This document shows positions 22,296 to 38,262 of a DNA stretch of 64,000 bases, piece after piece. The position numbers and the translations under genes were made by a program. Source of the stretch: Pseudorhodoferax sp. Leaf274 (GTDB lineage: Bacteria; Pseudomonadota; Gammaproteobacteria; Burkholderiales; Burkholderiaceae_C); NCBI RefSeq assembly GCF_001422445.1, contig NZ_LMNA01000008.1, positions 62,001-126,000 of the forward strand. The letters run 5' to 3'. Positions within the stretch are counted from its first letter, which is position 1. Each line of letters starts with the position of its first letter. Below the pieces are notes generated by a model. That model was not told the DNA's origin. It was given only the letters and a program-made list of their open reading frames with translations, and made no database searches.

Positions 22296-22408
22296 GATTC
22301 ACCAGTAAAACATATAAACCTGGGGTTTCTACTGATTTCAAGCGCACGCATCGATCGATAATTCGACCTAAGCGTTCCATTAGTAAATCCATGTTTCACC
22401 AACGAAAC
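22296..22408. promoter_or_regulatory. Three related 16-bp operator-like sites (candidate IclR sites)
   Basis: The sites are GATTCACCAGTAAAAC at 22296-22311, GTTCCATTAGTAAATC at 22374-22389 and GTTTCACCAACGAAAC at 22393-22408. Eight of sixteen positions are the same in all three. The third is an inverted repeat, GTTTC-N6-GAAAC, and the others are imperfect versions. The last two start 19 bases apart, about two helix turns. IclR-family regulators bind palindromes of this size, and an iclR gene is the fifth gene of the operon that begins at 22420, so it is the likely binder. This is inference from position and symmetry. Confidence 0.6.
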
Positions 22409-22419
22409 AAACAACAACC

Positions 22420-23391
22420 ATGACGAGCCTGATCCGCAAGTTGTTCCTGGCCGGCGCCGTCGGTGCGCTGGCATTGTCGGCAGCCGCCGAAGGCTATCCG
22501 GCCAAGCCCATCACCATCGTCGTCGCCTACCCGGCCGGCGGCGACACCGACGCGCTGGCGCGCGTGTTCGCCGAGAAGCTCTCCGCCCGTGTGAAGCAGC
22601 CCGTGGTGGTCGACAACCGGGCGGGCGCCAGCGGCGTGATCGGCAGCAGCTACGTGTCCAAGGCGCCGGCCGACGGCTACACACTGCTGATGGCGCCCAG
22701 CACGTTCTCCATCGCCCAGCTGGTGCTCAAGACCGGTTCCGGCAGCGGCTACGACGTGGTGAACGGCTTCACGCCGATCTTCCAGCTCGGCACGCAGCCG
22801 CTGTTCCTGGCCGCCGGCCCGGCCGGCAAGGCCGCCACGCTCAAGGACGTGCTGGCCGCCTCCAAGGCAGCGCCCATGGCCTACGCCAGCCCCGGCAGCG
22901 GCTCGCCCATGCACATCCTGGGCGAGATGTTCAACAAGGCCTCGGGTGCGGGCCTGCGCCATGTGCCCTACAAGGGCATCGCCCCCGGCATCACCGACGT
23001 GGTCGGCGGACACGTGCCGTTGACCTGGGTGACCTACGGGCCGGCCGCTCCATACCTGGCCGACGGCAAGATGCGGCTGCTGGCCGTGGCGCAGGGCGCG
23101 CGCTCGCCGCTGGCGCCCGAGGTGCCCACGCTGGCCGAGCTGGGCTACAAGGATGTCGAGGTCGTGGCCTGGAACGGGCTGTTCGGTCCCAAGGGCCTGC
23201 CGGCCGACATCGTGCAGCAGCTCAACGGCCACTTCAACGAGATCCTCAAGATGCCCGACGTGCTGGACCGCATGAAGACGCTGGGCACGCTGCCCGTGGG
23301 CGGTGCACCGGCCCAGCTGGCCAAGACCAATGCGGCGGACCTGGAGCGCTTCACCCGCATCGTCAAGGAACTGAACATCCTGCCCGACTGA
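22420..23391 (+). CDS. Bug/TctC family periplasmic binding protein (first of island)
   Basis: The 323-residue protein has a signal peptide (about residues 1-23) followed by the Bug fold: PITIVVAYPAGGDTD, VDNRAGASGVIGSS, the phosphate-like loop SPGSGSPMH and RHVPYKGIAPG. It should bind a small acid in the periplasm. No membrane subunits of a tripartite transporter occur anywhere in the island, so the MFS gene at its far end may be the actual carrier, or the protein may act as a sensor. It is the first gene downstream of the three operator-like sites. Confidence 0.92.
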   Translation: MTSLIRKLFLAGAVGALALSAAAEGYPAKPITIVVAYPAGGDTDALARVFAEKLSARVKQPVVVDNRAGASGVIGSSYVSKAPADGYTLLMAPSTFSIAQLVLKTGSGSGYDVVNGFTPIFQLGTQPLFLAAGPAGKAATLKDVLAASKAAPMAYASPGSGSPMHILGEMFNKASGAGLRHVPYKGIAPGITDVVGGHVPLTWVTYGPAAPYLADGKMRLLAVAQGARSPLAPEVPTLAELGYKDVEVVAWNGLFGPKGLPADIVQQLNGHFNEILKMPDVLDRMKTLGTLPVGGAPAQLAKTNAADLERFTRIVKELNILPD

Positions 23392-23425
23392 CGTCCGGAC
23401 CCCTCCACCTGTGATCCGCCCCACC

Positions 23426-24241
23426 ATGACACAAGCACACGGCATTGCCGACCCCCGCAGCCTCGACGGCCTGCTCGCCGAACTGCCGCGCGACCTGCTG
23501 CGGGGCCGCCGCGTGCTGGTCACCGGCGCCGCGCGCGGCCTGGGGCTGGCGTTCGCCAAGAGCATCGCCCAGGCCGGCGGCCGCGTGGTCCTGGCCGACG
23601 TGCTGGCCGAACTGGCGCAGGCCGAAGCCACCGCCATGCGCGGCGCCGGCCTCGATGCGCAGGCGCTGGCCGTCGACCTGCTCGACCCCGAATCCATCCA
23701 GCGATGCGCCGAGCAGACGCTGCAGCGGCTGGGCGGCCTGGACGGGCTCGTGAACAACGCCGCCATCACCAACTCCGGCGGCCGCGACGCCCACGCGCTC
23801 GACGTGGCCACCTGGGACCGCGTGATGGACGTGAACGTGCGCGGCACCTGGCTCACGAGCCGCGCCTGCCAGCCGGCGCTGGCGGCCAGCGGCCACGGCG
23901 CCATCGTGAACCTGGCGTCCGACACCGCGCTGTGGGGCGCGCCCAACCTGCTGGCCTATGCGTCGAGCAAGGGTGCCGTCATTGCGATGACGCGCTCGCT
24001 GGCCCGCGAATGGGGCGGCGACGGCATCACCGTCAACGCGATTGCGCCCGGCCTCACGCTGGTCGAGGCCACCGAATACGTGCCCCAGGCGCGCCACGAC
24101 AAGTACCTGGAAGGCCGCGCCCTGCCGCGCGAGCAGCAGGCCGTGGACGTCTGCGGCGCCGTGCTGTTCGCCCTGTCGCCGCTGGCGCGCTTCGTCAGCG
24201 GCCAGCTGCTTGCCGTCAACGGCGGCTTCGTGATGCATTGA
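23426..24241 (+). CDS. SDR family oxidoreductase
   Basis: A 271-residue short-chain dehydrogenase with the cofactor motif TGAARGLG, an acidic residue after strand 2 (VLADV) that favours NAD(H), NNAA, the catalytic Ser in NLASDTALWG and YASSK. The end reads FVSGQLLAVNGGF as in typical 3-oxoacyl-reductase-like SDRs. It should oxidise or reduce a hydroxyl or keto group of a pathway intermediate, possibly the cis-diol or hydroxyacid. It starts 34 bases after the Bug gene. A GTG five codons earlier (23411) is another possible start. Confidence 0.9.
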   Translation: MTQAHGIADPRSLDGLLAELPRDLLRGRRVLVTGAARGLGLAFAKSIAQAGGRVVLADVLAELAQAEATAMRGAGLDAQALAVDLLDPESIQRCAEQTLQRLGGLDGLVNNAAITNSGGRDAHALDVATWDRVMDVNVRGTWLTSRACQPALAASGHGAIVNLASDTALWGAPNLLAYASSKGAVIAMTRSLAREWGGDGITVNAIAPGLTLVEATEYVPQARHDKYLEGRALPREQQAVDVCGAVLFALSPLARFVSGQLLAVNGGFVMH

Positions 24242-24278
24242 CCGAACCGGATCGCCACCCCACCCCAAGGAGTTCCCC

Positions 24279-24827
24279 ATGACCGACCTCTCCGAACAAC
24301 AGAAGATCGACGACGCCGCCCCGAGCTGGGCCCGCCCCGAAGGCGCCAGCCTGGAGGACTGGATGGGCGCGCGCATCGCGCGGTATTCGACGCGCAAGTA
24401 CGACTGGAACGCGCTGAAGTTCCAGGCCGACGTCGACCCCAAGTTCCGCCGCGCGCAGATGCGCTACGTGGGCACCGGCGGCACCGGCGTGATGGCCGAC
24501 GTCAACACCGTGCCGGCCGAGCACTTCACGTTTTCCACCATGGTGATCCCGGCCGGCCACGAAGGCCCGCCGCACCTGCACATCGACGTGGAAGAAGTGT
24601 TCTTCCTGATCCGCGGCAAGCTCAAGGTGGTGCTGACCACGCCGGAGGGCGAGCGCTTCGAGACCATCCTGACCGACCGCGACCTGATCTCGGTGCCGCC
24701 AGGCGTGTACCGCGAGGAGATCAACGTCGGCGACGAGGACGCGCTGATGTGCGTCATGCTGGGCGCCAAGAAGCCCATCACGCCGACCTATCCGGCCGAC
24801 CACCCGCTGGCCAGGATCAAGCGCTGA
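24279..24827 (+). CDS. Cupin domain protein
   Basis: A 182-residue protein with one cupin barrel. The metal-binding motif is seen as HEGPPHLHIDVEEVFF (two His and a Glu), and the second cupin motif as SVPPGVYREEINVGDEDA, though without an obvious fourth His. About 60 N-terminal residues precede the barrel and start with an acidic helix. Cupins of this kind are dioxygenases, isomerases or simple ligand binders; the activity cannot be deduced. GGAG lies eight bases before the ATG. Confidence 0.85.
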   Translation: MTDLSEQQKIDDAAPSWARPEGASLEDWMGARIARYSTRKYDWNALKFQADVDPKFRRAQMRYVGTGGTGVMADVNTVPAEHFTFSTMVIPAGHEGPPHLHIDVEEVFFLIRGKLKVVLTTPEGERFETILTDRDLISVPPGVYREEINVGDEDALMCVMLGAKKPITPTYPADHPLARIKR

Positions 24828-24856
24828 GCGCCCTGCCGCTGCCCTGCCTCGCCGCC

Positions 24857-25732
24857 ATGACACCCTCCACGCTGCCCCCGTTGCCTGCCGCGGAACTGGA
24901 ATTGCTGGACCAGCATTTCCCCGAACGCACGCTGGCCCTGGCCCATGGCCGGCAGGCCGTGCGCGAGGCCGGCGCGGCGGACGCGCCCGCGCTGGTCTGC
25001 CTGCACGGCATCGGCTCGGGCGCGGCGTCCTGGCTGGGCGTGGCGCGCACGCTGGCGCCGCAGGCACGGCTGATCGCCTGGGACGCACCCGGCTATGGCG
25101 TCTCCAGCCCGCTGCTGGCCAGCGCGCCGCGCGCCGCGGACTATGCGGCGCGGCTGGCCGAGCTGCTGCAGGCCCTGGACATCCGGCGCTGCGTGCTCGT
25201 GGGCCACTCGCTGGGCGCGCTGGTCGCCGGCGCGGCGGCGCGACCGGACAGCGCGCTGCGCGAGCGCATCGCGCGGCTCGTGCTGGTCAGCCCGGCCCGC
25301 GGCTACGGCGGCGCCGGCCGCGAGCCGCAAGCCCGGCAAGTGCGCACCCAGCGCCTGGCCGCGCTGGCCGAGGGCGGCATCGCCGGCATGGCCGGCCAGC
25401 GCGCGGACCGGCTGCTGTCCGCCGATGCGGACGCCACCGCGCGCCAATGGGTGCGCTGGAACATGGGCCGGCTCAACGAAGGCGGCTACCGCCAGGCCAT
25501 CGAGCTGCTGTGCGGCGACGACCTGCTCGCGGCGTTGCCGCCCGCCATGCCGGTGCGCGTGCTGTGCGGGGCCGAGGACGTCGTGACCCCGCCCGCCGCC
25601 TGCCGCGACGTGGCCGCGGCCTGCGGCGTGGGCCTGGAAGAATTGCCCGGCGCCGGCCACGCCTGCTATGTCGAACAGCCCGGGACCGTGGCCCGCGCGC
25701 TCCTGCAAGAACTTCACAAGGCCACCGCATGA
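24857..25732 (+). CDS. Alpha/beta hydrolase
   Basis: The 291-residue protein has the alpha/beta-hydrolase landmarks: oxyanion segment LHGIGSGAASW, the nucleophile elbow GHSLGA (Ser), an acid in LCGAEDVVTPP, and the catalytic His in GAGHACYVEQP. Its size and helical cap fit the carbon-carbon or ester hydrolases found in aromatic degradation (for example meta-cleavage product hydrolases). That role would match the VOC-type gene downstream but is not proven. Its stop codon overlaps the iclR start as ATGA, so translation of the regulator is coupled to it. Confidence 0.9.
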   Translation: MTPSTLPPLPAAELELLDQHFPERTLALAHGRQAVREAGAADAPALVCLHGIGSGAASWLGVARTLAPQARLIAWDAPGYGVSSPLLASAPRAADYAARLAELLQALDIRRCVLVGHSLGALVAGAAARPDSALRERIARLVLVSPARGYGGAGREPQARQVRTQRLAALAEGGIAGMAGQRADRLLSADADATARQWVRWNMGRLNEGGYRQAIELLCGDDLLAALPPAMPVRVLCGAEDVVTPPAACRDVAAACGVGLEELPGAGHACYVEQPGTVARALLQELHKATA

Positions 25733-26574
25733 CCAATGACGACACCCTGCCGACCACGGACGAGGGCGGCGACCGCTACAACGTGCCCGCGCTCGAGCGC
25801 GGCCTGCGCATCCTGTCCGAATTCGGCCACGACGCGCGCACGCTGTCGGCGCCCGAACTGGCGCGCCGCTTCGACCTGCCGCGCTCCACCGTGTTCCGCC
25901 TGCTCACCACGCTGGAGAACATGGGCTTTCTCGAACGCACCGAGGGCGGCCGCGAATACCGCCTGGGCCTGGCCGTGCTGCGCCTGGGCTTCGAGTACCT
26001 CGCGTCGCTGGAACTGACCGAGCTCGGCATGCCGGTGCTCAACCGCCTGAGCGAAGACGTGGGCCACATCTGCCACCTCGTGGTGCGCGACGGCCGCTCC
26101 ATCGTCTACGTGGCCAAGACCGCCTTCTACTCGCCGTTCCGCAGCACCGTCAGCGTCGGCACGCGGCTGCCGGCCCACGCCACGGTGCTGGGCCACGCCA
26201 TGCTGGAAGACATGACGCTGCCCGAGCTGCGCGCGCTGTACCCCGAAGACAAGCTGGAGCGCTTCACGAGCCAGACACCCGCCACCGTCCACGCGCTGTT
26301 CGACATGGTGCAGGCCGGCCGCGAACGGGGCTACACGGTCAGCGAGAGCTTCTACGAGCCCAACATCTCCACCGTGGCCACCTCCGTGCGCGACCGCGCC
26401 GGCCATGTCGTGGCGGCGCTGGGTGTCACGGTCAACGCCGGGACCCTCGAGCCGGCCGAGGTCGAACTGCTGTCGGCCCGCGTCTGCAGCGCGTCCGCCG
26501 AGATCTCCGAGCTGCTGTACGGCGTGCGCCCCGCCCTGGCCCGCAAGGTCGTGCCGCTGCGCGGCGGCGCCTGA
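25729..26574 (+). CDS. IclR family transcriptional regulator
   Basis: The 281-residue protein has an N-terminal winged helix (about residues 15-80; LARRFDLPRSTVFRLLTTLE) and the C-terminal IclR effector domain (about 95-265), including GTRLPAHATVLGHAML and ISTVATSVRDRAGHVVAALGV. IclR-type regulators respond to aromatic acids or glyoxylate-like metabolites. Being embedded in the operon with four-base overlap to the hydrolase gene, it is likely autoregulated. The three 16-base sites upstream of 22420 are the best candidate targets. Confidence 0.93.
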   Translation: MTNDDTLPTTDEGGDRYNVPALERGLRILSEFGHDARTLSAPELARRFDLPRSTVFRLLTTLENMGFLERTEGGREYRLGLAVLRLGFEYLASLELTELGMPVLNRLSEDVGHICHLVVRDGRSIVYVAKTAFYSPFRSTVSVGTRLPAHATVLGHAMLEDMTLPELRALYPEDKLERFTSQTPATVHALFDMVQAGRERGYTVSESFYEPNISTVATSVRDRAGHVVAALGVTVNAGTLEPAEVELLSARVCSASAEISELLYGVRPALARKVVPLRGGA

Positions 26575-26597: not shown

Positions 26598-27434
26598 ATG
26601 ACCACCCCCTCCAGCCCCTCCTTCCTGGCCGCCGACGCGCTGGCCGGCCGCACCGCCGTCGTGACCGGTGGCTCCTCCGGCATCGGCCTGGCCACCGTGC
26701 AGGTGCTGCTGGCCTGCGGCGCGGCCGTGGCCCTGTGCGGCCGCGACGGCGCACGGCTGGACCGGGCGGTCACGCAGCTGCGCCAGGAGTTCCCGCGCGC
26801 CCGGCTGTTCGCCCAGCGCTGCGACGTGCTGGACGCGGCCTCGGTGCAGGCCTTCGCCAGCGCCAGCCAGGCCGCGCTCGGCCCGGCGTCCATGCTGGTC
26901 AACAACGCCGGCCAGGGCCGCGTCTCCACCTTCGCCGACACCGCGGACCAGGCCTGGGTCGACGAGCTGCAACTCAAGTTCTTCTCGGTCATCCACCCCA
27001 CGCGCGCCTTCCTGCCGCAGCTGGCGGCCGAGCGCCAGCGCCTGGGCGACGCGGCCATCACGTGTGCCAACTCGCTGCTGGCACGCCAGCCCGAGCCGCA
27101 CATGGTCGCCACCTCGGCCGCGCGGGCCGGCGTGCTGAACCTCGTGCGCTCCATGGCCGCCGAGTTCGCGCCGCAGGGCGTGCGCGTGAACGGCATCCTG
27201 ATCGGGCTCGTGGAATCGGGCCAATGGCGCCGCCGCTTCGACGCACGCGACGACACCTCGCAGGACTGGGCCGCCTGGAGCGGCCAGCTCGCCAGCGACA
27301 AGCACATCCCGCTGGGCCGCCTGGGGCTTCCACTGGAAGCCGCACGCGCGCTCGTTTTCCTGTCCTCGCCGTTCGCCTCGTACACGACCGGCAGCCACAT
27401 CGACATCTCCGGAGGCCTGTCCCGCCATGCTTAA
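26598..27434 (+). CDS. SDR family protein lacking the canonical YxxxK pair
   Basis: A 278-residue SDR with an intact cofactor motif TGGSSGIG, the NNAG motif and a C-terminal SSPFASYTTGSHIDISGG that fits the family. In the catalytic region, where YxxxK is expected, the sequence reads PEPHMVATSAARAG. Aligned on the following ARAGVLNLVRSMAAE helix, the Tyr is replaced by Thr and the Lys by Arg. The preceding Ser is kept (CANSLLA). The protein may use another mechanism, with the His close by, or may no longer be an oxidoreductase. It overlaps the next gene by eight bases. Confidence 0.85.
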   Translation: MTTPSSPSFLAADALAGRTAVVTGGSSGIGLATVQVLLACGAAVALCGRDGARLDRAVTQLRQEFPRARLFAQRCDVLDAASVQAFASASQAALGPASMLVNNAGQGRVSTFADTADQAWVDELQLKFFSVIHPTRAFLPQLAAERQRLGDAAITCANSLLARQPEPHMVATSAARAGVLNLVRSMAAEFAPQGVRVNGILIGLVESGQWRRRFDARDDTSQDWAAWSGQLASDKHIPLGRLGLPLEAARALVFLSSPFASYTTGSHIDISGGLSRHA

Positions 27435-29151
27435 GCCCGTCACTTCCACCGCCTCCACCACCCAGGCGCAGCAGGCCACCGTCGGCGCCGTGGTCGCCGC
27501 CTTCCTCGAACAGTGCGGCGTGCAGGCCGCGTTCGGGGTGATCTCCATCCACAACATGCCGATCCTGGACGCCTTCGCGCAGCGCGGCAGGACGCGCTTC
27601 GTGATGGCGCGCGGCGAGGCCGGCGCCGGCAACATGGCCGACGCCTACGCGCGCTCCACCTCCAGCCTGGGCGTGTGCATCACCAGCACCGGGCCCGCGG
27701 CCGGCAACATCGCCGGCAGCCTGGTGGAGGCCCGCACCGCCGGCACGCCGCTGCTGCACATCACGGGCCAGATCGAGACCCGGTACCTGGACCAGAACCT
27801 CTCGTACATCCACGAGGCGCCGGACCAGCTGACCATGCTGGGCGCCGTCTCCAAGGCCGCGTTCCGCGTGCGCAGCGTGGAGACCGTGCTGTCCACCCTG
27901 AAGAAGGCCGTGCAGCTCGCGCTGACCGCGCCCACCGGCCCGGTCAGCGTGGAGATCCCGATCGACATCCAGCAGGCCGTGGTCGCCATGCCGGCCGATC
28001 TGTCGCCGCTGCCGGTCGTCCAGGCCGCCCCCGGCGCGGACGCGCTGGACGCGCTGGCCGACGCACTGGCCCGGGCCCGCCGCCCGCTGCTGTGGCTGGG
28101 CGGCGGCGCCCGCCACGCCGGCCGCGCCGTGCAGCGCCTGAAGGCCCTGGGCTTCGGCATCGTCACCACCGTGCAGGGCCGCGGCATCGTGGCCGAAGAC
28201 GACCCGGCCTCGCTGGGCGCCTACAACATCCACAAGCCGGTCGAAGCCTTCTACCAGCGCTGCGACGCCATGCTGGCCGTGGGCACGCGCCTGCGCAGCA
28301 ACGAGACGCTGAAGTACGAGCTGAAGCTGCCGCGCCCGCTGTACCGCGTGGACGTGGACGCCGCGCAGTCCGGCCGCTGCTACGCCGACGACGGCTTCGT
28401 CTGCGGCGACGCGGCCCTGGTGCTGGCCGGCCTGGCCGACCGCCTGGAGGCGCGCGGCTACCGGGCCGACCCGGAGCTGCTGGCCGACCTGCGCCACACG
28501 CACCAGGAAGTGGTCGCCTCGCTGCACGACGGCCTGGGCGTCTACAGCCAGCTGGTGCAGCAGCTGCAGAAGGTGGCCGGCCGCAACTTCAACTGGGTGC
28601 GCGACGTGACGGTGTCCAACAGCACCTGGGGCAACCGCGAACTGCGCTTCTTCCAGGCCGACGCGGGCGTGCACGCCACCGGCGGCGGCATCGGCATGGG
28701 CATGCCCATGGCGATCGGCGCGGCGGTCGGCGCGGCGGCCACGGGCTCTGGCCGCAAGACGCTGGGCCTGGCCGGCGACGGCGGCTTCATCCTGAACCTG
28801 GGCGAGCTGGCCACGCTGGTGCAGGAACAATGCGACGCCCTGATCGTGCTGATGAACGACCAGCGCTACGGCGTGATCCAGAACATCCAGGATGCGTCGT
28901 ACGGCGGACGCCGCTGCTACGTGGAGCTGCACACGCCGGACTACGCGCAGCTGTGCGCCTCGATCCAGCTGCCGCACGCCCGCGTCCAGAGCCTGGACGC
29001 CCTGTCGGCACAGCTGGAGGCGGCCTGGCGCCAGCCGGGCCCCTTCCTGCTCGAGATCGACATGCGCGCCATCGGCAGCTTCAAGACCAGCTTCTCCGGC
29101 CCGCCGGTGAACAAGCTGGACCAGATCCCGGCGCTGCAGCCCGCCGCCTGA
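27427..29151 (+). CDS. Thiamine pyrophosphate-dependent enzyme (acetolactate synthase-like)
   Basis: The 574-residue protein has the three domains of the pyruvate-oxidase/acetolactate-synthase family. The N-terminal PYR domain carries the catalytic Glu in RGEAGAGNMADAYAR, a central Rossmann-like domain spans about residues 195-330, and a C-terminal PP domain holds the metal/TPP motif GDGGFILNLGE (about residue 452) ending in VLMND. Such enzymes decarboxylate 2-oxo acids and release an aldehyde or transfer the two-carbon unit. With an amino-acid-dehydrogenase-like gene and an aldehyde dehydrogenase directly downstream, a 2-oxo acid decarboxylase role is likely. Confidence 0.9.
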   Translation: MLKPVTSTASTTQAQQATVGAVVAAFLEQCGVQAAFGVISIHNMPILDAFAQRGRTRFVMARGEAGAGNMADAYARSTSSLGVCITSTGPAAGNIAGSLVEARTAGTPLLHITGQIETRYLDQNLSYIHEAPDQLTMLGAVSKAAFRVRSVETVLSTLKKAVQLALTAPTGPVSVEIPIDIQQAVVAMPADLSPLPVVQAAPGADALDALADALARARRPLLWLGGGARHAGRAVQRLKALGFGIVTTVQGRGIVAEDDPASLGAYNIHKPVEAFYQRCDAMLAVGTRLRSNETLKYELKLPRPLYRVDVDAAQSGRCYADDGFVCGDAALVLAGLADRLEARGYRADPELLADLRHTHQEVVASLHDGLGVYSQLVQQLQKVAGRNFNWVRDVTVSNSTWGNRELRFFQADAGVHATGGGIGMGMPMAIGAAVGAAATGSGRKTLGLAGDGGFILNLGELATLVQEQCDALIVLMNDQRYGVIQNIQDASYGGRRCYVELHTPDYAQLCASIQLPHARVQSLDALSAQLEAAWRQPGPFLLEIDMRAIGSFKTSFSGPPVNKLDQIPALQPAA

Positions 29152-29155: not shown

Positions 29156-29989
29156 ATGCGCACCATGCCTACCATGCCCACCTTGCCCACATTGCAAGTG
29201 GCCCTGATCGGCTGCGGCGCCATCGGCACCGCGCTGCTGGAACTCGTGCAGCACGACACCGGCCTCGCAGTGGCCGCCATCGTGGTGCCGCAGGCCGGCG
29301 TCGAAGCCGCGCAGGCCGTGGCCCGGCGGCTGGCCCCTGCGGCCCGCGTCTGCGACAGCGTGCCGCACGACGGCATCGCGCTGGTGGTGGAAGCCGCCGG
29401 CCATGCCGCCATCGCACAGCACGTGCTGCCCGCCTTGCGTCGCGGCGTGCCCTGCATCGTGGCCTCGGTCGGCGCGCTGTCGGCCGCCGACCTGGCCGAA
29501 CAGCTGGAAATGGCCGCCCACGCCGGCGGCACGCAGGCCCAGCTGATCGCCGGGGCCATCGGTGCCATCGATGCGCTGGCCGCCGCGCGCATCGGCGGGC
29601 TGGACAGCGTGCGCTACACCGGCCGCAAGCCGCCGCAGGCCTGGAAGGACACGCCGGCCGAGGCCGGCCGCGACCTCGCCAGCCTGGCCACGGCCACCGT
29701 CATCTTCGAAGGCTCGGCCCGCGAGGCCGCCCGGCTCTACCCCAAGAACGCCAACGTGGCGGCCACCGTGTCGCTGGCCGGCCTGGGCCTGGACCACACC
29801 ATGGTGCGCCTGGTGGCCGACCCCGGCGTGACCGAGAACGTGCACCAGGTCGAGGCCGCGGGCGCGTTCGGCAGCTTCGAGCTGACCATGCGCAACCAGC
29901 CCCTGGCCGCCAACCCCAAGACCTCGGCGCTCACGGTCTACAGCGCCGCGCGCGCACTGCGCAACCGCACGGCCGCCGTGTCGATCTGA
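29156..29989 (+). CDS. Aspartate dehydrogenase-like protein (NadX family)
   Basis: The 277-residue protein has an N-terminal NAD-binding Rossmann fold (VALIGCGAIGTALLE) and the C-terminal domain of the aspartate dehydrogenase family (PF01958-like), with PKNANVAATVSLAGLGLDH holding the active-site His. Known members oxidise L-aspartate to iminoaspartate or release ammonia. In this island it sits between a TPP decarboxylase and an aldehyde dehydrogenase, which suggests deamination or reductive amination in a catabolic pathway rather than NAD synthesis; no nadA/nadC gene is near. It starts four bases after the TPP gene. Confidence 0.88.
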   Translation: MRTMPTMPTLPTLQVALIGCGAIGTALLELVQHDTGLAVAAIVVPQAGVEAAQAVARRLAPAARVCDSVPHDGIALVVEAAGHAAIAQHVLPALRRGVPCIVASVGALSAADLAEQLEMAAHAGGTQAQLIAGAIGAIDALAAARIGGLDSVRYTGRKPPQAWKDTPAEAGRDLASLATATVIFEGSAREAARLYPKNANVAATVSLAGLGLDHTMVRLVADPGVTENVHQVEAAGAFGSFELTMRNQPLAANPKTSALTVYSAARALRNRTAAVSI

Positions 29990-31510: not shown

Positions 31511-32479
31511 ATGAGCGTTCTCGGCATCGACCAGATCACCTACGGCACGGACGACCTTGCGTTGTCGCGCCGCTTCTTCCAGGACTGGGGCCTGACCCTG
31601 GCGCACGAGAGCGCCGACACGCTGGTGTTCACCTGCCTCAATGGCTGCCGCGTGGTCGTGGCCGCCATGGACCACCCCGGCCTGCCGCCGGCCATCGAAC
31701 CAGGCCCGACGCTGCGCGAAGTGGTGTGGGGCGTGGAGCGCGCGGAAGACCTCGCGCGCTATGCCGATGCGATCCGCCACGACCCGGGCTTCGTCGACAC
31801 CGAGGTCGACGGCGCGCGCCGCATCGGCTGCACCGACCCCAACGGCCTGGCCGTGCGGCTGCAGGTCACGAGGAAGCGCGACATCGCGCTGCAGAGCGCC
31901 GCCATGAACACCTGGAGCGACAAGCCGCGCATCAACCAGCCCAGCCCGGTCTACGAGCGCGCCACGCCGATCGAGGTCGGCCATGTGGTGTTCTTCGCGG
32001 CCGACGTGCCGGCCTGCGAGGCCTTCTACGCCAGCCGCTTCGGCTTCGTCTCGTCCGACCGCTACCCGGGCCGCGGCGCCTTCATGCGCTGCGCGCCGAG
32101 CGGCGGCCACCACGACCTGTTCCTGTTGCAGCTGCCTTCGGGCAAGCGCGGCATCAACCACGTGGCGTTCACCGTGCGCGACATCCACGAGGTGTTCGGC
32201 GGCGGCCTGCACTTCTCGCGCTGCGGCTGGGAGACGCAGCTCGGCCCGGGCCGGCACCCGGTGTCGTCGGCCTATTTCTGGTACTTCAAGAACCCGGCCG
32301 GCGGCCTGATCGAGTACTACGCCGACGAGGACCAGCTGACCGCCGACTGGCAGCCGCGCGAGTTCGAACCCGGCCCCACGGTGTTCGCCGAGTGGGCCGT
32401 GGACGGCGGGCTGGACGGCCACACGCGCCGGCAAAAGGGCGTGGACGCCGGTGGCAAGTTCCTGACCGAGAAGAAGTGA
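31511..32479 (+). CDS. VOC family protein, extradiol-dioxygenase-like
   Basis: The 322-residue protein has two VOC modules, the layout of type I extradiol ring-cleavage dioxygenases. The first begins LGIDQITYGTDDL. The second begins EVGHVVFFAADVPACEAFY, has a His in GINHVAFTVRD, and ends GGLIEYYADEDQL. Candidate metal ligands are the His in VGHVVF, the His in INHVAF and the Glu in IEYYAD, the usual 2-His-1-Glu set. A ring-opening dioxygenase acting on a catechol-like intermediate is therefore plausible. A C-terminal tail of about 45 residues is extra. Confidence 0.85.
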   Translation: MSVLGIDQITYGTDDLALSRRFFQDWGLTLAHESADTLVFTCLNGCRVVVAAMDHPGLPPAIEPGPTLREVVWGVERAEDLARYADAIRHDPGFVDTEVDGARRIGCTDPNGLAVRLQVTRKRDIALQSAAMNTWSDKPRINQPSPVYERATPIEVGHVVFFAADVPACEAFYASRFGFVSSDRYPGRGAFMRCAPSGGHHDLFLLQLPSGKRGINHVAFTVRDIHEVFGGGLHFSRCGWETQLGPGRHPVSSAYFWYFKNPAGGLIEYYADEDQLTADWQPREFEPGPTVFAEWAVDGGLDGHTRRQKGVDAGGKFLTEKK

Positions 32480-32484: not shown

Positions 32485-33468
32485 ATGCAACGCAAGACCT
32501 TCCTCGCGGCCCTGCTCGGCGTGGTGGCGGCCACGGGCGCCATCGCCCAACCGGCCGACGCGGCCAGGTCGCTGGCCGCCGAGCGCTTCACCATCGTCTC
32601 GCCGTTCCCGGCGGGCGGCCCGGTCGACACGCTGGCACGCATCCTGGCCGACGGGCTGGCCAAGCGCTATGGCCAGGCGGCCGTGGTCGAGAACACCGCG
32701 GGCGCGGCCGGCAACATCGGCATCGACAAGGTCAAGCGCGCCAAGGGCGACGGCCACACGCTGCTCGTGGTGCCGGCCGGCAACCTCACGATCAACCCGA
32801 CGCTGATGCCGAACTTCCCGTTCGACATCGCGAAGGACTTCGTCGCCGTCACCATGCTGGCCAAGGCGCCGAACGTGATCGTGGCCACGCCGGCCTCGGG
32901 GCTCAAGACCGCGCGCGACCTGGTGGCGCAGGCCAAGGCCAGTCCGGGCACGCTGTCGTACGCCTCGCCGGGCGTGGGCAGCGGGCTGCACCTGGCCGGC
33001 GAGCTGTTCAAGCAACAGGCGGGCGTGGACATGCTGCACGTGGCCTACAAGGGCACGCCGCCGGCGCTGAACGACGTGCTGGGCGGCGTCGTGCCGCTGA
33101 TGTTCACCAACCTGCCGACGGCGCTGCCCTACCTGAAGAGCGGCAAGCTCGTGGCGCTGGGCGTGACCGAGGCCAGCCGCACGCCGGTCGCGCCCGAGAT
33201 CCCCACGCTGGCCGAGCAGGGGATCGCCGGTGTCAACGTGACCTCGTGGTACGGCCTGCTGGCGCCGGCCGGCACGCCGCCCGCGGTGGCCGAGCAACTG
33301 GCCCGCGACGCGGCCGATTTCCTGTCGCAGCCCGAGGTCCGCACGCGGCTTGCCGCGCAGGGGATGGCCCAGGCCACGATGGCGCCGGCCGCGTTCGCCC
33401 AGGCCATGCGCGAGGAAACGGCGACCTGGGCGCAGGTCATCAAGGCCCGCAACATCCGCGCCGAGTGA
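32485..33468 (+). CDS. Bug/TctC family periplasmic binding protein (second of island)
   Basis: The 327-residue protein has a signal peptide (about residues 1-26) and the Bug fold: FTIVSPFPAGGPVD, VENTAGAAGNIG, SPGVGSGLHLAGE and HVAYKGTPPALND. It is clearly different in sequence from the first Bug protein of the island, so the two may bind different compounds, such as the parent substrate and an intermediate. It starts five bases after the VOC gene stop codon, which links uptake to the ring-cleavage-type gene. Confidence 0.92.
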   Translation: MQRKTFLAALLGVVAATGAIAQPADAARSLAAERFTIVSPFPAGGPVDTLARILADGLAKRYGQAAVVENTAGAAGNIGIDKVKRAKGDGHTLLVVPAGNLTINPTLMPNFPFDIAKDFVAVTMLAKAPNVIVATPASGLKTARDLVAQAKASPGTLSYASPGVGSGLHLAGELFKQQAGVDMLHVAYKGTPPALNDVLGGVVPLMFTNLPTALPYLKSGKLVALGVTEASRTPVAPEIPTLAEQGIAGVNVTSWYGLLAPAGTPPAVAEQLARDAADFLSQPEVRTRLAAQGMAQATMAPAAFAQAMREETATWAQVIKARNIRAE

Positions 33469-33520: not shown

Positions 33521-33742
33521 ATGCCACAAGACCGCTACCTGCAACCGCACCAGGCGCGCCAGCGCCCCGCGACCACCTACGAAGACCTGCTGGGCGACGC
33601 GATCGAGCGCGCGTTCGGTGCGGGTGCGCACGACCTGGCCAGCCTGGTCCAGGCCCTGAACGCCAGCGGACTGGCCAGCCCCAGCGGCAAGGCCTGGACC
33701 GAAGCGGTCTACCGCACCGAGATCGCCGCGCTGGCCGCCTGA
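33521..33742 (+). CDS. Small recombinase-like helix domain protein
   Basis: This 73-residue protein is helical and charged, with a PHQARQRP stretch, TTYEDLLGDAIERAFGAGAHDL and a helix-turn-helix-like end (LNASGLASPSGKAWTE). The last part resembles the small helical module of site-specific recombinases, hence the family name used for such proteins. It is too small to be a recombinase. To my knowledge it recurs next to Rieske oxygenase genes in Burkholderiales. GGAGG lies seven bases before the ATG. It precedes the oxygenase gene by 11 bases, so a role tied to that enzyme is likely. Confidence 0.75.
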   Translation: MPQDRYLQPHQARQRPATTYEDLLGDAIERAFGAGAHDLASLVQALNASGLASPSGKAWTEAVYRTEIAALAA

Positions 33743-33753: not shown

Positions 33754-34794
33754 ATGACGATTGCCATCCACCCGGTCGCCGCCGACCCGGTCGACCACCT
33801 GCTCGAGATCGGCCTGAAGGACCTCTGGTACCCGATCTGCCCCTCGCACTTCATCCAGGAGAACCCGGTCTCGCTGCGCCGCCTGGGCCGCAAGCTCGCG
33901 CTGTGGCGCGACGGCGACGGCGTGCTGCACGCGCTGGAAGACCGCTGCCCGCACCGCGGTGCGCCGCTGTCGCAGGGCGTGATCCTGGGTGACCGGCTGT
34001 CCTGCCCCTACCACGGCGTGGAAGTGCGCCACGACGGCACGGTCACGCGCGTGCCCGGCAGCCCGGGCTGCAAGCTGGAAGGCTCGCGCGCCACGCGCCA
34101 CTTCCACGTGCAGGAGCGCGCGGGCGCCGTGTTCCTCTACAACAGCAAGGAGCCGGTCGACACGCCGCCGCCGCTGGTGCTGCCCGAGCAGCTGACCGAC
34201 GACGCCGAGTACGCGAGCTTCCTGTGCTACACCGAGTGGAAGGGCGACTACCGCTACGTGCTGGACAACGTGATGGACCCGATGCACGGCACCTTCCTGC
34301 ACAAGCAGTCGCACTCGATGGCCGAGGGCGATTCGACGGCCAAGTTCGGCATCCGCCCGACCGACACCGGCTTCGTGTTCGAGAAGGAAGGCCAGCGCAA
34401 CGTCAACTTCGACTGGACCGAGTGGGCCGATACGGGCATCCACTGGACGCGGCTGGAGATCCCCTATCCGAAGACCGGCGGCCCCGGCGGCAACTTCATC
34501 ATCGTGGGCGCGTTCGCCCCCATCGTGAAGGGCATGACGGCCACCTTCTTCTGGCGCGTGCGCAAGCTGGCCCCGGGCTGGGAGCGCGACACCTGGCGCT
34601 TCCTGTACAGGAACCGCCTGGAGGCGCGCCACTGGCATGTGCTCGAGCAGGACCGCGTGATGCTCGAGGACATGGAGGCCGACGCCAACCAGCACGAGAA
34701 CCTGTACCAGCACGACCTGGGCATCGTGCGGCTGCGCCGGCACATGCGCAACCTGGCGCAGCAACAGCTGCAGGGCGAAACCGCCGCCGCCTGA
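33754..34794 (+). CDS. Rieske non-heme iron oxygenase, alpha subunit
   Basis: The 346-residue protein has an N-terminal Rieske [2Fe-2S] domain with CPHRG (Cys65, His67) and CPYHG (Cys84, His87). The C-terminal catalytic domain shows the mononuclear iron ligands as NVMDPMHGTFLH (His178, His183, with the bridging Asp175). The length and the PDR-type reductase next door fit the phthalate/vanillate-oxygenase group, which work as homo-oligomers without a beta subunit and hydroxylate or demethylate aromatic acids. No small-subunit gene is present. This is the most likely first step of the pathway. Confidence 0.95.
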   Translation: MTIAIHPVAADPVDHLLEIGLKDLWYPICPSHFIQENPVSLRRLGRKLALWRDGDGVLHALEDRCPHRGAPLSQGVILGDRLSCPYHGVEVRHDGTVTRVPGSPGCKLEGSRATRHFHVQERAGAVFLYNSKEPVDTPPPLVLPEQLTDDAEYASFLCYTEWKGDYRYVLDNVMDPMHGTFLHKQSHSMAEGDSTAKFGIRPTDTGFVFEKEGQRNVNFDWTEWADTGIHWTRLEIPYPKTGGPGGNFIIVGAFAPIVKGMTATFFWRVRKLAPGWERDTWRFLYRNRLEARHWHVLEQDRVMLEDMEADANQHENLYQHDLGIVRLRRHMRNLAQQQLQGETAAA

Positions 34795-34841: not shown

Positions 34842-35816
34842 ATGTCCGCTCCCACGTTGAACGCCCTGGTGCACACGATGCGCCACGAGGCCGACGGCAT
34901 CGTCAGCGTCGAATTCCGTCCTGCCACCGCGGACGTGGAATTCCCCGCGTTCGAGGCCGGCTCGCACATCGACCTGCACCTGCCCAACAGCCTGGTGCGC
35001 AGCTACTCGCTGTGCAACCCCAGCAGCGACCGGGGGCGCTACGTGGTCGGCGTGCTGCACGACCGCGCCAGCCGCGGCGGTTCGCGCTACGTGCACCAGC
35101 AGCTGCGCGTGGGCAGCACGGTCCAGATCTCCGCCCCGCGCAACAACTTCGCGCTGCACGAGGACGCGCCGCGCAGCGTGCTGGTGTCCGGCGGCATTGG
35201 CGTAACGCCCATCTGGTGCATGTTGCAGCGCCTGGTGGCGCTGGGCCGGCCGGTGGAGCTGTTCTATTGCGCCCGCACGCGCAAGGAGGCCGCGTTCATC
35301 GCCGCCATCGAGGCGCTGGCCGAACAGGCGCCGGCGAAGGTGCAGGTGCACTGGCACTTCAACGACGAGCGCGGCGGACCGCCCGACCTGGCCGCGCTGC
35401 TGGCCGGCCGCGGCGCCGACAGCCACTACTACTGCTGCGGCCCCACGCCGATGCTGGATGCGTTCGAGAAGACCTGCGAGCAGCTGGGCTACGCGAACGC
35501 CCACATCGAGCGCTTTGCGGCCGTGGCCGTGCCGCAGACGCTGGCCGACAGCGGCTTCGAGGTGGTCTGCCGCAAGAGCGACAAGACCGTGGAAGTGCCG
35601 GCCGGCAAGTCCATCCTGGACGCGCTGATCGACGCCGGCCTGAACCCGGACCACAGCTGCAAGGAAGGCGTCTGCGGCGCCTGCGAGACCGCCGTGCTCG
35701 GTGGCGAGGTCGACCACCACGACGGCATCCTGTCCAAGGCCGAACGCGCGGCCAACAAGACCATGATGATCTGCGTCTCGCGCTGCAAGCGCGGGCCGCT
35801 GGTCCTCGACATCTAG
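34842..35816 (+). CDS. PDR/VanB-type oxygenase reductase
   Basis: The 324-residue reductase carries, in order, an FMN-binding domain (RSYSLCNPS), an NAD-binding domain (VSGGIGVTPIWCML and the CCGPTPMLDAFE motif) and a C-terminal plant-type [2Fe-2S] ferredoxin domain with the cluster cysteines in CKEGVCGACE and MICVSRC. This order is that of phthalate dioxygenase reductase and VanB. It takes electrons from NADH and passes them to the Rieske centre of the oxygenase encoded 47 bases upstream. Confidence 0.95.
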   Translation: MSAPTLNALVHTMRHEADGIVSVEFRPATADVEFPAFEAGSHIDLHLPNSLVRSYSLCNPSSDRGRYVVGVLHDRASRGGSRYVHQQLRVGSTVQISAPRNNFALHEDAPRSVLVSGGIGVTPIWCMLQRLVALGRPVELFYCARTRKEAAFIAAIEALAEQAPAKVQVHWHFNDERGGPPDLAALLAGRGADSHYYCCGPTPMLDAFEKTCEQLGYANAHIERFAAVAVPQTLADSGFEVVCRKSDKTVEVPAGKSILDALIDAGLNPDHSCKEGVCGACETAVLGGEVDHHDGILSKAERAANKTMMICVSRCKRGPLVLDI

Positions 35817-35832
35817 CCCCCCTTTTTCAACC

Positions 35833-35862: not shown

Positions 35863-35908
35863 GTGGCCGGCCGTTGCCCGGATTTCCCCTCAGCACCACC
35901 CCCAACCC

Positions 35909-36931
35909 ATGAAAACCATTCGCACCACCCTTGCCGTCGCGGCCGCCGCCTGCTGCGGCACCGCCGCCCTGGCCCAGTCCTCGGTCACGGTCTTCGGCAC
36001 CGTCGATCTGGGCCTCACGCACCTGCGCGCCTCCGAGGGCTCGCAGACCGGCATGTCGCACAGCAACGCCAACATCAGCCGCATCGGCTTTCGCGGCGTG
36101 GAAGATCTGGGCGGCGGCCTGTCCGCGCACTTCTGGCTGGAGGGCGGCTTCTCGCCCGACACCGGCGCCGGCCCGGGCCCGACGGGGCTGACCAGCCTGT
36201 CCTTCAACCGGCGCGCCACCGTCGCGCTGCAGAGCGGCCTGGGCGAGCTGCGCCTGGGCCGCGACGACTCGGCGACCTTCCTCAACACGCTGGTGTTCGA
36301 CCCGTTCCTGACCAACGGCGTCGGCGGCACCAACGCGTTCGTCATGAACGGCGCGCCGATCCAGATCAGCAACGCCATCAGCTACCTGACGCCGGCCGGC
36401 CTGGGCGGCTTCTACGGCCAGTTGCAATACGCACCCGACGAGACGGTGGCCTCGGCCGCCGGCAAATACACCGGCGCGCGCGTGGGCTGGCGCCAGGGCC
36501 CGGCCCATGTGGCAGCCTCGGCCGGCACCTTCAAGGGCGCGACCGAGGCGCAGGACGTGCGCATCCGCAATGCCGCGGCCAGCTACGACTTCGGCATGGT
36601 CCAGCCCATGCTGCTGTGGGCCACCGAGAAGCGCAACGGCGTGGAACTGCGCGCGCTGCAGCTGGGCGTGAAGGTGCCGATCGGCGTGGCCGAGATCCGC
36701 GCGCAGGTGAGCCGCTACGACACCTCCAACAGCAATGCCGACTGGCGCAAGTTCGCGATCGGCTACGGCTACAACCTGTCCAAGCGCACGCAGGTCTACG
36801 CCACCTACGCGCACATCGCCAACTCGGACCGCTCGCAGCGCAGCGTGGGTGCCCAGGGCGTGGTGGCACCCGCCAACAGCCTGGGCGCGGGCTCGTCGGG
36901 CTACGAAGTCGGCCTGCGCCACTTCTTCTGA
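35909..36931 (+). CDS. Gram-negative general porin (OmpC/Omp32-like)
   Basis: The 340-residue protein has a signal peptide (about residues 1-22, ALA-QS). Mature sequence begins SSVTVFGTVDLGLTHL, typical of beta-proteobacterial porins, with ISRIGFRGVEDLGGGL and a C-terminal aromatic residue (RHFF) needed for outer-membrane insertion. It should form a 16-stranded trimeric pore. Its place in the island suggests a specialised entry route for the substrate. Confidence 0.93.
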   Translation: MKTIRTTLAVAAAACCGTAALAQSSVTVFGTVDLGLTHLRASEGSQTGMSHSNANISRIGFRGVEDLGGGLSAHFWLEGGFSPDTGAGPGPTGLTSLSFNRRATVALQSGLGELRLGRDDSATFLNTLVFDPFLTNGVGGTNAFVMNGAPIQISNAISYLTPAGLGGFYGQLQYAPDETVASAAGKYTGARVGWRQGPAHVAASAGTFKGATEAQDVRIRNAAASYDFGMVQPMLLWATEKRNGVELRALQLGVKVPIGVAEIRAQVSRYDTSNSNADWRKFAIGYGYNLSKRTQVYATYAHIANSDRSQRSVGAQGVVAPANSLGAGSSGYEVGLRHFF

Positions 36932-36969
36932 ACATCGCGGCCCGCGCCCACAGCACCCGAGGACAGCCC

Positions 36970-38262
36970 ATGCAGAACGGTCGCTCCCTACGCTGGGCAG
37001 GTGTGTTCACCCTGCTCGTCATCGTCGCCATCTCGTACGTGGACCGGATCAACATCTCGATCCTGATCACGGACCCGGGCTTCCTCGCGCACGTGGGCCT
37101 GTCGCCGCAGGACCGCACGCGCCAGGGCCTGCTGGCCACCGCGTTCATGGTGGGCTATGGCGTCTCGGCCTTCGTGTTCACGCCCTTCTGCGCGGCGCTG
37201 TTCGGCGTGCGCCGCAGCCTCATGTACGGGCTGGCGCTGTGGGGCGTGGTGACCTTCCTGTCGCCGCTGCTGCACAGCTATGGGCTGCTGCTGGCCTCGC
37301 GCATCCTGCTCGGCGTTTCCGAAGGCCCGCTGTTCGCGCTGGCGGCCGGCTACATCAAGGCGCATTTCGACAGCCGCGAGAACGGCAAGCCCAATTCGCT
37401 CGTCAACATGGGCACCGGGCTGGGCCTGGCGCTGGGCTACCCGTTCGTCGGCTTCCTGGTCGGCAGCTACGACTGGGAGACCTCGTTCCATGTGCTGGGC
37501 CTGTTGAACCTGGCGCTGGGCATTCCGCTGGTGCTGGCCTTCGTGCACATGCCGCAGCCCGAAAGCGGCCTGCCGCGCCCGCGCTCGCTGGCCGAGGCCG
37601 TGGAGCAGGTCGGCAAGATCGTGCGCGGCGCGCTGCACACGCGCTACCTGCTGCTGGTCACGGTGTTGACCGCGGCGTTCCTGGCCTACCTGTGGGGCAG
37701 CAGCAACTGGCTGCCGGCCTACCTGAAGGAAGCGCGCGGTTTCTCGCTGCGCGAGATGGGCTGGCTGGCCGCGCTGCCGCAGTACGCGACCATGCTGGCC
37801 GTGCTGCTGGGCGGCGTGCTGATCGACCGCGTCGCGCGCCGCCACGTGCCGCTGGTGTTCGTCGCGGGCAGCCTGGGCGTGGCGGCGGCGGTGTGGCTGG
37901 CCGTGCACGTGGAAGACCGCTACGCCGCGGCGTATTGCCTCATCGCGGCGAACTTCTTCTGGGGTCTCATGAGCCCTGCGATTCCGAGCACGGTGCAGCA
38001 CTTCGCGCGGCCGGAACACACAGCCAGCGCCTACGGCGTGGTGAACGGCGCGGGCAGCCTGGTGGCGGGCTTCATGCCGGCGCTGATGGGCGCGGTGATC
38101 GGCTGGACCTCGGGCAGCCAGGGTGGCGGCTTCCTGGCCGGGTTCAGCCTGCTGGTGGGATCGCAGCTCGTGGTGCTGGCCTGCGGCGGGCTGCTCTGGT
38201 GGCACGAGCGCCGCCCGGCCGCCCCCAGGCAGTCGGCACCGCAGCACGCGGTGCGCAGGTAG
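36970..38262 (+). CDS. MFS transporter, anion:cation symporter type
   Basis: The 430-residue protein has twelve hydrophobic helices. Helix 1 carries the ISYVDRINISI pattern and helix 4 the SRILLGVSEGP pattern typical of the ACS (anion:cation symporter) family that imports organic acids such as hexuronates, phthalate or hydroxyphenyl acids. Being the last gene of the island, 38 bases after the porin, it is the best candidate for inner-membrane uptake of the pathway's substrate. Confidence 0.92.
   Translation: MQNGRSLRWAGVFTLLVIVAISYVDRINISILITDPGFLAHVGLSPQDRTRQGLLATAFMVGYGVSAFVFTPFCAALFGVRRSLMYGLALWGVVTFLSPLLHSYGLLLASRILLGVSEGPLFALAAGYIKAHFDSRENGKPNSLVNMGTGLGLALGYPFVGFLVGSYDWETSFHVLGLLNLALGIPLVLAFVHMPQPESGLPRPRSLAEAVEQVGKIVRGALHTRYLLLVTVLTAAFLAYLWGSSNWLPAYLKEARGFSLREMGWLAALPQYATMLAVLLGGVLIDRVARRHVPLVFVAGSLGVAAAVWLAVHVEDRYAAAYCLIAANFFWGLMSPAIPSTVQHFARPEHTASAYGVVNGAGSLVAGFMPALMGAVIGWTSGSQGGGFLAGFSLLVGSQLVVLACGGLLWWHERRPAAPRQSAPQHAVRR

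Follow-up and report, generated by a model that had tools for sequence, protein, structure and literature searches.

Sixteen consecutive genes of Pseudorhodoferax sp. Leaf274 encode uptake proteins, a Rieske oxygenase, an extradiol-type dioxygenase and a relative of L-aspartate dehydrogenase, and they raise the question of which compound is being degraded. The genes occupy positions 22420–38262 of the window, a 64,000-nucleotide stretch of contig NZ_LMNA01000008.1 from a genome of 6.7 Mb in 30 contigs. On balance, and with moderate confidence, we read the operon as one that takes up kynurenate (4-hydroxyquinoline-2-carboxylate), or a quinoline acid very close to it, and breaks it down completely. 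We infer the substrate and every reaction from observed gene content, active-site residues, linkage, exchanged modules and an upstream palindrome. Of the routes considered, the kynurenate route alone needs an aspartate dehydrogenase. Nitrogen in the substrate is probable from the genes present: an NadX-like gene occurs in 98 of 107 related loci and RidA in 19, and some loci carry a flavin monooxygenase (FMO) resembling NicC.

All sixteen genes are intact and lie on the + strand with intergenic gaps of −8 to 92 bases, much as a first-pass annotation made from the window's letters had described. We assigned gene families with Pfam and NCBIfam profiles, which confirmed the types of all fifteen modules named in that annotation; the sixteenth gene encodes a 73-residue helix-turn-helix (HTH) protein. 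The features are listed below in their order along the window, where SDR is short-chain dehydrogenase/reductase, TPP thiamine pyrophosphate and ALDH aldehyde dehydrogenase.

22393..22408, no strand: 16-bp perfect palindrome GTTTC-N6-GAAAC just before Bug1, putative IclR-type operator
22420..23391, +: Bug1, Bug/TctC periplasmic binding protein for substrate uptake (PF03401, E 2.9e-54)
23426..24241, +: SDR1, proposed 7,8-dihydro-7,8-dihydroxykynurenate (cis-dihydrodiol) dehydrogenase (adh_short_C2)
24279..24827, +: cupin, proposed oxygenase opening the 4,6-dihydroxypicolinate (pyridone) ring (Cupin_2)
24857..25732, +: alpha/beta hydrolase, proposed N-acyl-enamine (amide) hydrolase (Abhydrolase_6/1)
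25729..26574, +: IclR-family regulator, PcaR/PcaU/PobR-like (TIGR02431, E 3.1e-48, under its cut-off)
26598..27434, +: SDR2, proposed NAD(P)H reductase of the propenyl side chain (NF005468/PRK07062, 442.4 bits against a cut-off of 266)
27427..29151, +: TPP enzyme, proposed 2-oxo acid decarboxylase of the ring-cleavage product (NF005470/PRK07064, 875 bits against a cut-off of 495)
29156..29989, +: NadX-like protein, proposed catabolic iminosuccinate reductase/L-aspartate dehydrogenase (NF009827, 414.9 bits against a cut-off of 226)
30017..31492, +: ALDH, proposed dehydrogenase of a formylethyl-dihydroxypicolinate intermediate (PF00171, E 1.1e-169)
31511..32479, +: VOC protein, type I extradiol dioxygenase, proposed 7,8-dihydroxykynurenate 8,8a-dioxygenase (HpaD/C23O-like, under those cut-offs)
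32485..33468, +: Bug2, second Bug/TctC binding protein (PF03401, E 6.7e-67)
33521..33742, +: 73-residue recombinase-like HTH protein, companion of the Rieske gene (PF20552, E 2.1e-30)
33754..34794, +: Rieske oxygenase alpha subunit, proposed kynurenate 7,8-dioxygenase (PF00355 and VanA_C)
34842..35816, +: PDR-type (VanB-like) reductase, proposed electron donor of the Rieske oxygenase (Fer2 and NAD_binding_1)
35909..36931, +: outer-membrane porin for substrate entry (Porin_4, E 4.2e-58)
36970..38262, +: MFS carrier for substrate entry (MFS_1, E 4.6e-49)

Comparison with known pathways

The closest known system is the kynurenate ('quinoline') pathway of Pseudomonas (Hayaishi, Horibata, Taniuchi and co-workers 1961–63; Dagley and Johnson 1963), whose biochemistry is represented by titles in the reference lists of PMC5770815, PMC11354673 and PMC5610271. 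The predicted enzyme classes are alike, in order a dihydroxylating oxygenase, diol dehydrogenase, extradiol cleavage of 7,8-dihydroxykynurenate, reduction, decarboxylation and aldehyde oxidation. A 1961 title names L-glutamate, D- and L-alanine and acetate as formed from kynurenate by Pseudomonas extracts (PMC5770815), glutamate and alanine-type end products like those proposed here, and a 1963 title names the enzymatic formation of 7,8-dihydroxykynurenate (PMC5610271). The difference lies in the cupin, hydrolase and NadX ending, which is a proposal for this cluster.

The first-pass annotation had recognised no textbook pathway and suggested an undescribed route. By enzyme class the kynurenate pathway does fit, and the match to the 1961–63 biochemistry, so far as its titles tell, qualifies 'undescribed'; what stands is the missing link from chemistry to genes. 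We found no genes assigned to kynurenate degradation in the open-licence literature (a subscription paper could exist), and in the same literature no description of this gene combination. The gene set itself recurs widely among sequenced bacteria and is not specific to this strain. The cluster probably supplies the genes for a pathway already described biochemically.

Other systems share parts of the set. The VanAB and dicamba demethylase systems also pair a VanA_C-type alpha subunit with a PDR-type reductase, but here the pair is linked to SDR1 and an extradiol dioxygenase, and in other clades the reductase is swapped for ferredoxin or flavodoxin chains. According to PMC12746152, the Lum riboflavin/lumichrome pathway likewise applies a TPP decarboxylase, a Rieske oxygenase, an extradiol dioxygenase and a xanthine-oxidase-type molybdenum (Mo) enzyme to an N-heteroaromatic compound; it also has a P450, three enzymes of pyrimidine-ring hydrolysis, a TPP enzyme made up of two subunits (20 and 23 kDa) and a Rieske oxygenase of the alpha/beta kind. 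No P450, pyrimidine-ring hydrolase or Rieske beta subunit is present among the 16 genes, and the Lum pathway was rejected because these defining genes are absent and the TPP enzyme here is a single chain. Naphthalene or catechol meta-cleavage also fits less well, there being no hydratase-aldolase or dienoate hydratase/aldolase among the 16 genes. Pathways for toluenesulfonate, isovanillate, mandelate, tropate, phenylglycine, ephedrine and indoleacetate were set aside on comparison from general knowledge.

Ring dihydroxylation, cleavage and side-chain steps

Enzymes of the kynurenate pathway are classified as EC 1.14.99.2, 1.3.1.18 and 1.13.11.10. We read active-site residues from alignments of 21–23 sequences, their catalytic roles being those generally known for the enzyme families. 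The Rieske oxygenase, with the PDR-type reductase, would dihydroxylate C7–C8 of kynurenate (step 1). Its residues C65, H67, C84, H87, D175, H178, H183 and D300 are invariant, and its nearest solved relatives are dicamba demethylase, SxtDIOX/SxtT and carbazole 1,9a-dioxygenase. SDR1 would then re-aromatise the diol (step 2); in Klebsiella, Acinetobacter, Caballeronia NK8, Paracoccus and Nitratireductor, its gene directly follows the Rieske gene. The VOC protein would cleave C8–C8a to give 4,6-dihydroxypicolinate bearing a -CH=CH-CO-COOH chain (step 3). Its H158, H217, E268, H201 and Y258 are invariant, and several extradiol dioxygenases are among its solved relatives. At the level of enzyme class, ring dihydroxylation, dihydrodiol dehydrogenation and extradiol cleavage are all represented with conserved catalytic residues. 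Taken as a dihydroxylation, dehydrogenation and extradiol set, and given the direct Rieske–SDR1 succession in several clusters, these genes support the kynurenate reading.

The electron chain is exchangeable. In Klebsiella, Acinetobacter and Caballeronia NK8 and SBC1, a ferredoxin and a flavin adenine dinucleotide (FAD)-dependent oxidoreductase replace the PDR-type reductase, and in Paracoccus, Nitratireductor and Pseudosulfitobacter the chain consists of an FAD-dependent oxidoreductase and a flavodoxin. The PF20552 HTH gene keeps close to the Rieske gene both across classes and in Streptomyces.

For the side chain, SDR2 would reduce the double bond (step 4), the TPP enzyme would decarboxylate the chain to an aldehyde (step 5), and the ALDH would oxidise this to a carboxyethyl group (step 6). 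The order of these steps is that of the textbook pathway, in which the chain is reduced, decarboxylated and oxidised to 5-(2-carboxyethyl)-4,6-dihydroxypicolinate (KEGG map00380). The three genes are near neighbours in the cluster and their classes suit such steps. The TPP enzyme is a single 574-residue chain with all three TPP domains and an invariant E64, so that 2-oxo acid decarboxylation and, with the ALDH, aldehyde oxidation are represented at class level. Profile searches found no hydratase or aldolase families among the 16 genes; a TPP route starting from a product of the arylidene-pyruvate type is therefore a better fit than a catechol meta-pathway.

Further evidence on the order of steps comes from plasmid pNK84 of Caballeronia NK8 (L134), where a short additional set of ferredoxin, HTH, Rieske, TPP, VOC and Mo-hydroxylase genes comes after a full cluster; the stretch read holds no second ALDH, cupin, hydrolase or NadX gene. 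Because the short set repeats only the Rieske/TPP/VOC part, the TPP enzyme appears to act early. This partial duplication suggests that it follows the VOC protein, and that the ALDH, cupin, hydrolase and NadX-like protein act downstream on a shared later intermediate. Two plasmids of Caballeronia NK8, pNK84 and pNK83 (L092), each hold a full cluster.

Opening of the pyridone ring and release of nitrogen

The last three steps are proposed here. The cupin would oxygenate C5, which lies between two ring carbonyls, and break C4–C5 to give N-(2-oxoglutaryl)-aminofumarate (step 7). Acetylacetone dioxygenase and quercetinase are cupins that perform cleavage of this beta-dicarbonyl type. The nearest solved relative of the cluster cupin is the quercetinase QueD (E 1.1e-5), and H99, H101 and E105 are invariant. 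The alpha/beta hydrolase, with invariant S118, D241 and H268, would split the N-acyl-aminofumarate into 2-oxoglutarate and iminosuccinate (step 8). Its distant matches include RutD, alpha-(N-acetylaminomethylene)succinic acid hydrolase (3KXP, E 2e-8) and many other hydrolases.

The NadX-like protein would reduce iminosuccinate, the natural partner of aspartate dehydrogenase, to L-aspartate (step 9). Among solved structures the closest to it is L-aspartate dehydrogenase (2DC1, E 2.9e-30), it passes the score of the curated aspartate dehydrogenase family, and N228 and H230, which we take to have catalytic-type roles, are invariant in 23 sequences. A NadB-like gene with a score under the curated cut-off lies elsewhere in the window genome. 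By our own count the carbon of the route balances (C10 = C5 + C4 + CO2), from which glutamate- and aspartate-derived products are predicted.

Conservation of the cluster

A VOC protein scan of named genomes returned 361 relatives, of which the best 80 loci were retained. Together with 11 plasmid stretches (L089–L099) and 16 further stretches (L117–L132) these make up the 107 related loci; L125 and L126 are counted although they hold diverged VOC genes without the full core, and L134, L137, L139 and L140–L146 lie outside the count. A gene was counted as present if a tblastn match spanned 35–40% of the query, and several loci stop at contig borders. Because many of the loci are from Variovorax, counts over the 107 are not counts of independent events.

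The catalytic and regulatory genes are nearly constant across these loci (VOC 103, IclR 101, TPP 101, Rieske 100, ALDH 99, NadX 98, SDR1 97, SDR2 96, HTH 95, cupin 91, alpha/beta hydrolase 90 and PDR 82 of 107). On the same counts the uptake genes are variable (Bug2 70, Bug1 60, porin 59 and MFS 49), and Bug1, judged by its presence and absence, is an accessory gene. Ten genes (SDR1, cupin, alpha/beta hydrolase, IclR, SDR2, TPP, NadX, ALDH, VOC and Rieske) are all matched in 79 of the 107 loci, or in 75 once matches with a stop in the aligned stretch are excluded; some of the 28 loci without the full set are truncated by contig ends. Distances between cluster genes correlate at 0.72–0.96 (Rieske 0.72–0.81, PDR 0.56–0.90) over 47 of 75 loci with Variovorax thinned, values that are inflated by strain kinship, and those of the NadX-like gene track the other cluster genes with r of 0.77–0.94. 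In an even sample of 398 genomes of the phylum, VOC (E<=1e-100) and cupin (E<=1e-60) genes occur in the same 9 genomes; weaker matches, kept apart, are VOC with E above 1e-100 in 5 genomes and cupin with 32–36% identity in 7. Among 399 members of the order, 14 have the VOC gene at E<=1e-80. A TPP survey at class level matched the window alone among 369 genomes and carried no information. Co-occurrence of the gene set is beyond chance, and the suggestion that these genes form one catabolic unit for an aromatic, probably nitrogenous acid holds.

The best 80 loci come from Xenophilus, Pseudacidovorax, Variovorax, Comamonas, Delftia, Ramlibacter, Polaromonas, Pseudomonas and others, mostly with near-identical gene order. 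The catalytic genes keep near this order in Comamonadaceae and Pseudomonas, with reshuffled order in the Comamonas and Delftia loci as well as in Klebsiella, Acinetobacter, Novosphingobium and Caballeronia. Diverged versions occur in Klebsiella (between speB and tkt), Acinetobacter, Novosphingobium, Caballeronia, Vibrio, Paracoccus, Nitratireductor and Pseudosulfitobacter. In Streptomyces chartreusis, where only the query genes were looked for, they form one compact run, ALDH-VOC-NadX-abh-cupin-SDR1-SDR2-TPP-PDR-HTH-Rieske (abh being the alpha/beta hydrolase), so a gene is present there for each of the nine proposed steps. A further seven loci from other classes of the phylum have a diverged cupin. 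Of these, L145 and L146 carry the trunk (ALDH was not seen in L146) and L143 is cut short. The cupin of L140, L142 and L144 is larger, at about 315 residues, and L144 has open reading frames (ORFs) resembling, by eye, a TRAP transporter and a sulfatase, which are conserved in one or both of L140 and L142.

The TPP gene shows a distribution of identities of its own (loci L031, L039, L043, L062, L064, L067–L069, L075 and L079). In Comamonas, Delftia and three Variovorax-like loci it shares 84–89% identity with its counterpart in the window, against 75–78% in the other Variovorax. Unlike the TPP gene, the other core genes of Comamonas and Delftia are more distant from the window than those of Variovorax, a pattern which suggests gene-wise replacement inside the operon. 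In Novosphingobium SA1 (L091, 4512–8737), genes for a TonB receptor and a family 3 glycoside hydrolase stand ahead of the TPP gene and may serve a glycosylated substrate.

Exchanged front-end modules

Some clusters carry additional oxygenase genes. An FMO gene, mostly between the VOC and HTH genes, is present in 37 of the 107 loci; there is none in the window cluster. Its nearest solved relative is 6-hydroxynicotinate 3-monooxygenase (E 1.6e-83), and in this NicC-like module the cluster resembles the nicotinate (nic) pathway; the nic ring-opening genes, as generally known, were not recognised among the 16, which hold a benzene-ring cleavage set instead. In the 398 genomes, FMO matches of at least 58% identity occur in 9, all among the 16 genomes with a cupin (5 with the close form and 4 with the 33–36% form), and in 6 of those 9 are no more than about 16 kb away from the cupin or VOC gene; one of the nine counted matches contains an internal stop. 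Matches of 43–44% identity occur in 4 genomes, none of which carries the cupin. All six plasmid records with an FMO of 59.7% or more identity also have the cluster VOC or TPP gene. The FMO and RidA modules, and more weakly the Mo-hydroxylase module, would fit a quinoline acid substrate.

The Vibrio nigripulchritudo cluster has an FMO, and neither a Rieske nor an SDR1 gene was found in the 29.6 kb examined. If both modules yield the same catechol, then Rieske and SDR1 would be a dihydroxylation pair, and the FMO would act on an already hydroxylated analogue. The Vibrio FMO gene (L094, 19211–20295) is split into two pieces in different frames, and into three pieces in a second strain, reflecting either a decayed gene or sequencing errors.

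Under the kynurenate proposal, xanthurenate (8-hydroxy) would need the FMO only, and quinaldate a Mo-hydroxylase. We tentatively extend this to a single modular quinoline-2-carboxylate system, a possibility that we hold with less confidence than the kynurenate assignment itself. Interchangeable front ends (Rieske and SDR1 for kynurenate, the NicC-like FMO for xanthurenate and perhaps Mo-hydroxylases for quinaldate) would feed a shared extradiol/TPP/ALDH trunk, the pyridone ring would be opened by an unusual cupin and the hydrolase, and nitrogen would leave as L-aspartate via a catabolic NadX.

Evidence against kynurenate and alternative explanations

Several observations weigh against the kynurenate assignment. 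The Rieske alpha subunit is of the VanA/DdmC type, and many such enzymes are demethylases; many VanA_C enzymes are not. SDRs are unusual ene-reductases, which bears on the SDR2 step. The cupin lacks the full 3-His/1-Glu dioxygenase metal site, as an arginine takes the place of the usual fourth ligand in the window (R145) and in Klebsiella, Acinetobacter, Novosphingobium and Vibrio (three alphaproteobacterial relatives have His there); judged from the alignment, R145 is a weak point for naming the protein a dioxygenase. No kynA, kynB or kynU homologues are present in the 107 loci (the search did not include aminotransferases), and 6 of 15 genomes with the VOC gene, including both Klebsiella-type arrangements, have no tryptophan dioxygenase, so that the substrate there would come from outside. 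The window genome has kynA elsewhere (PF03301), with adjoining kynB- and kynU-like ORFs read by eye. One diverged-cupin locus (L141) shows cupin, hydrolase and transporter matches alone. Absences in the FMO survey are soft, as at most four candidates were scored per genome.

The Mo-hydroxylase linkage is also weak and suggestive only. Any subunit is found in 16 of the 107 loci and the large subunit in 9, with several operons cut at the 10-kb border. Such domains are common, at 9–18 matches per genome in eleven genomes and 14 in the 6.7-Mb genome, and about 5 of the 107 loci, which are not independent, would be expected near one by chance. The best solved relative of the large subunit is 4-hydroxybenzoyl-CoA reductase, not an N-heterocycle enzyme; 6-hydroxypseudooxynicotine dehydrogenase and quinoline 2-oxidoreductase rank lower. 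The Mo-hydroxylases near some clusters are of two types, one with three subunits and one, in Cupriavidus campinensis, with a domain-permuted large subunit that is closest to an aldehyde dehydrogenase and again not to an N-heterocycle enzyme.

A different bicyclic N-heteroaromatic carboxylate (an isoquinoline, indole or other quinoline carboxylate) could be degraded by the same enzyme logic. The nitrogen evidence from NadX, RidA and the NicC-like FMO applies to it equally, the two Mo-hydroxylase types accord with it, and two VOC clades that are only about 27% identical occur in otherwise alike clusters, so that sub-families may differ in substrate. We nevertheless regard it as rather unlikely, since, of the acids worked through on paper, only a 4-hydroxyquinoline-2-carboxylate gives a pyridone that splits into 2-oxoglutarate and iminosuccinate and so explains the aspartate dehydrogenase. 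A nitrogen-free substrate, such as a methoxylated or sulfonated aryl acid, would make NadX incidental, with Rieske and PDR acting as an O-demethylase or methyl hydroxylase, the SDR and ALDH oxidising a side chain, the VOC protein cleaving a catechol and the TPP enzyme resembling benzoylformate decarboxylase. The VanA_C/DdmC-like Rieske subunit, the benzoylformate decarboxylase and benzaldehyde lyase among distant Protein Data Bank (PDB) matches of the TPP enzyme, and the 4-hydroxybenzoyl-CoA relative of the linked Mo-hydroxylase all agree with such a substrate. This is less likely still, as the NadX gene is nearly as conserved as the VOC gene (98 against 103 loci) with distances that track the other genes, the NicC-like FMO and RidA modules suggest nitrogen, and the Vibrio FMO without Rieske and SDR1 suggests dihydroxylation rather than demethylation.

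The run might instead join two adjoining pathways under one regulator, an upper Rieske/SDR1/cupin part and a separate TPP/NadX/ALDH/SDR2 part for an amino acid or 2-oxo acid. The reshuffled order in Comamonas, Delftia and Klebsiella would allow this, as would L140, L142 and L144, three loci from other classes in which Rieske, SDR1, cupin and FMO are present with no VOC, TPP, ALDH or NadX match within about 20 kb, a finding that also tells against the kynurenate assignment. Both parts are found together in the 79 loci with the ten-gene set and in the compact Streptomyces form, and the cupin and VOC genes occur in the same 9 of 398 genomes, making two pathways very unlikely. We retain kynurenate, or a very close quinoline acid, as the preferred substrate.

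Uptake, regulation and composition

The Bug, porin and MFS proteins would import the acid, and the IclR protein would control the unit from the palindrome at 22393–22408, which is probably its operator. Allowing up to one mismatch, the window holds no other copy of the palindrome. At least one match also turns up in 37 of 100 shuffled versions of the window, so the single copy proves nothing and weight falls on conservation. In 51 of 87 related loci, 9 or 10 of its 10 positions are found upstream of the cluster, although these regions are related to one another and 51 of 87 is not a count of independent events. For comparison, 1740 windows drawn at random from the same loci match as well in 2.1% of cases, and 1740 shuffles of the same upstream regions do so 9 times (0.5%). 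One other exact copy is present in the 6.7-Mb genome.

The GC content of the 16 genes is 0.67–0.77, similar to the flanking sequence; base composition does not support a horizontal island, and the word 'island' used in the first-pass annotation does not apply in that sense. Promoter and terminator scans gave no excess over chance. Outside the cluster, ARAGORN calls a tRNA-Thr (GGT) at 41675–41747, inside and antisense to an ORF (41463–42470) that by eye is folP-like, and the call is possibly false.

Biological significance

According to PMC5770815, kynurenate and xanthurenate arise in the metabolism of tryptophan, and kynurenate attracts study for its neuroactive and immune-active character. 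The gene set would allow one to ask which soil, plant and gut bacteria remove kynurenate. It would also give sequences to enzymes that, to our knowledge, are orphans, and it suggests for NadX-like aspartate dehydrogenases a catabolic role outside NAD synthesis. If the modular system is real, three enzymes that have long been orphans would gain genes, and N-heteroaromatic breakdown would gain a new ending, spread over soil bacteria, enterobacteria, Acinetobacter and Streptomyces.

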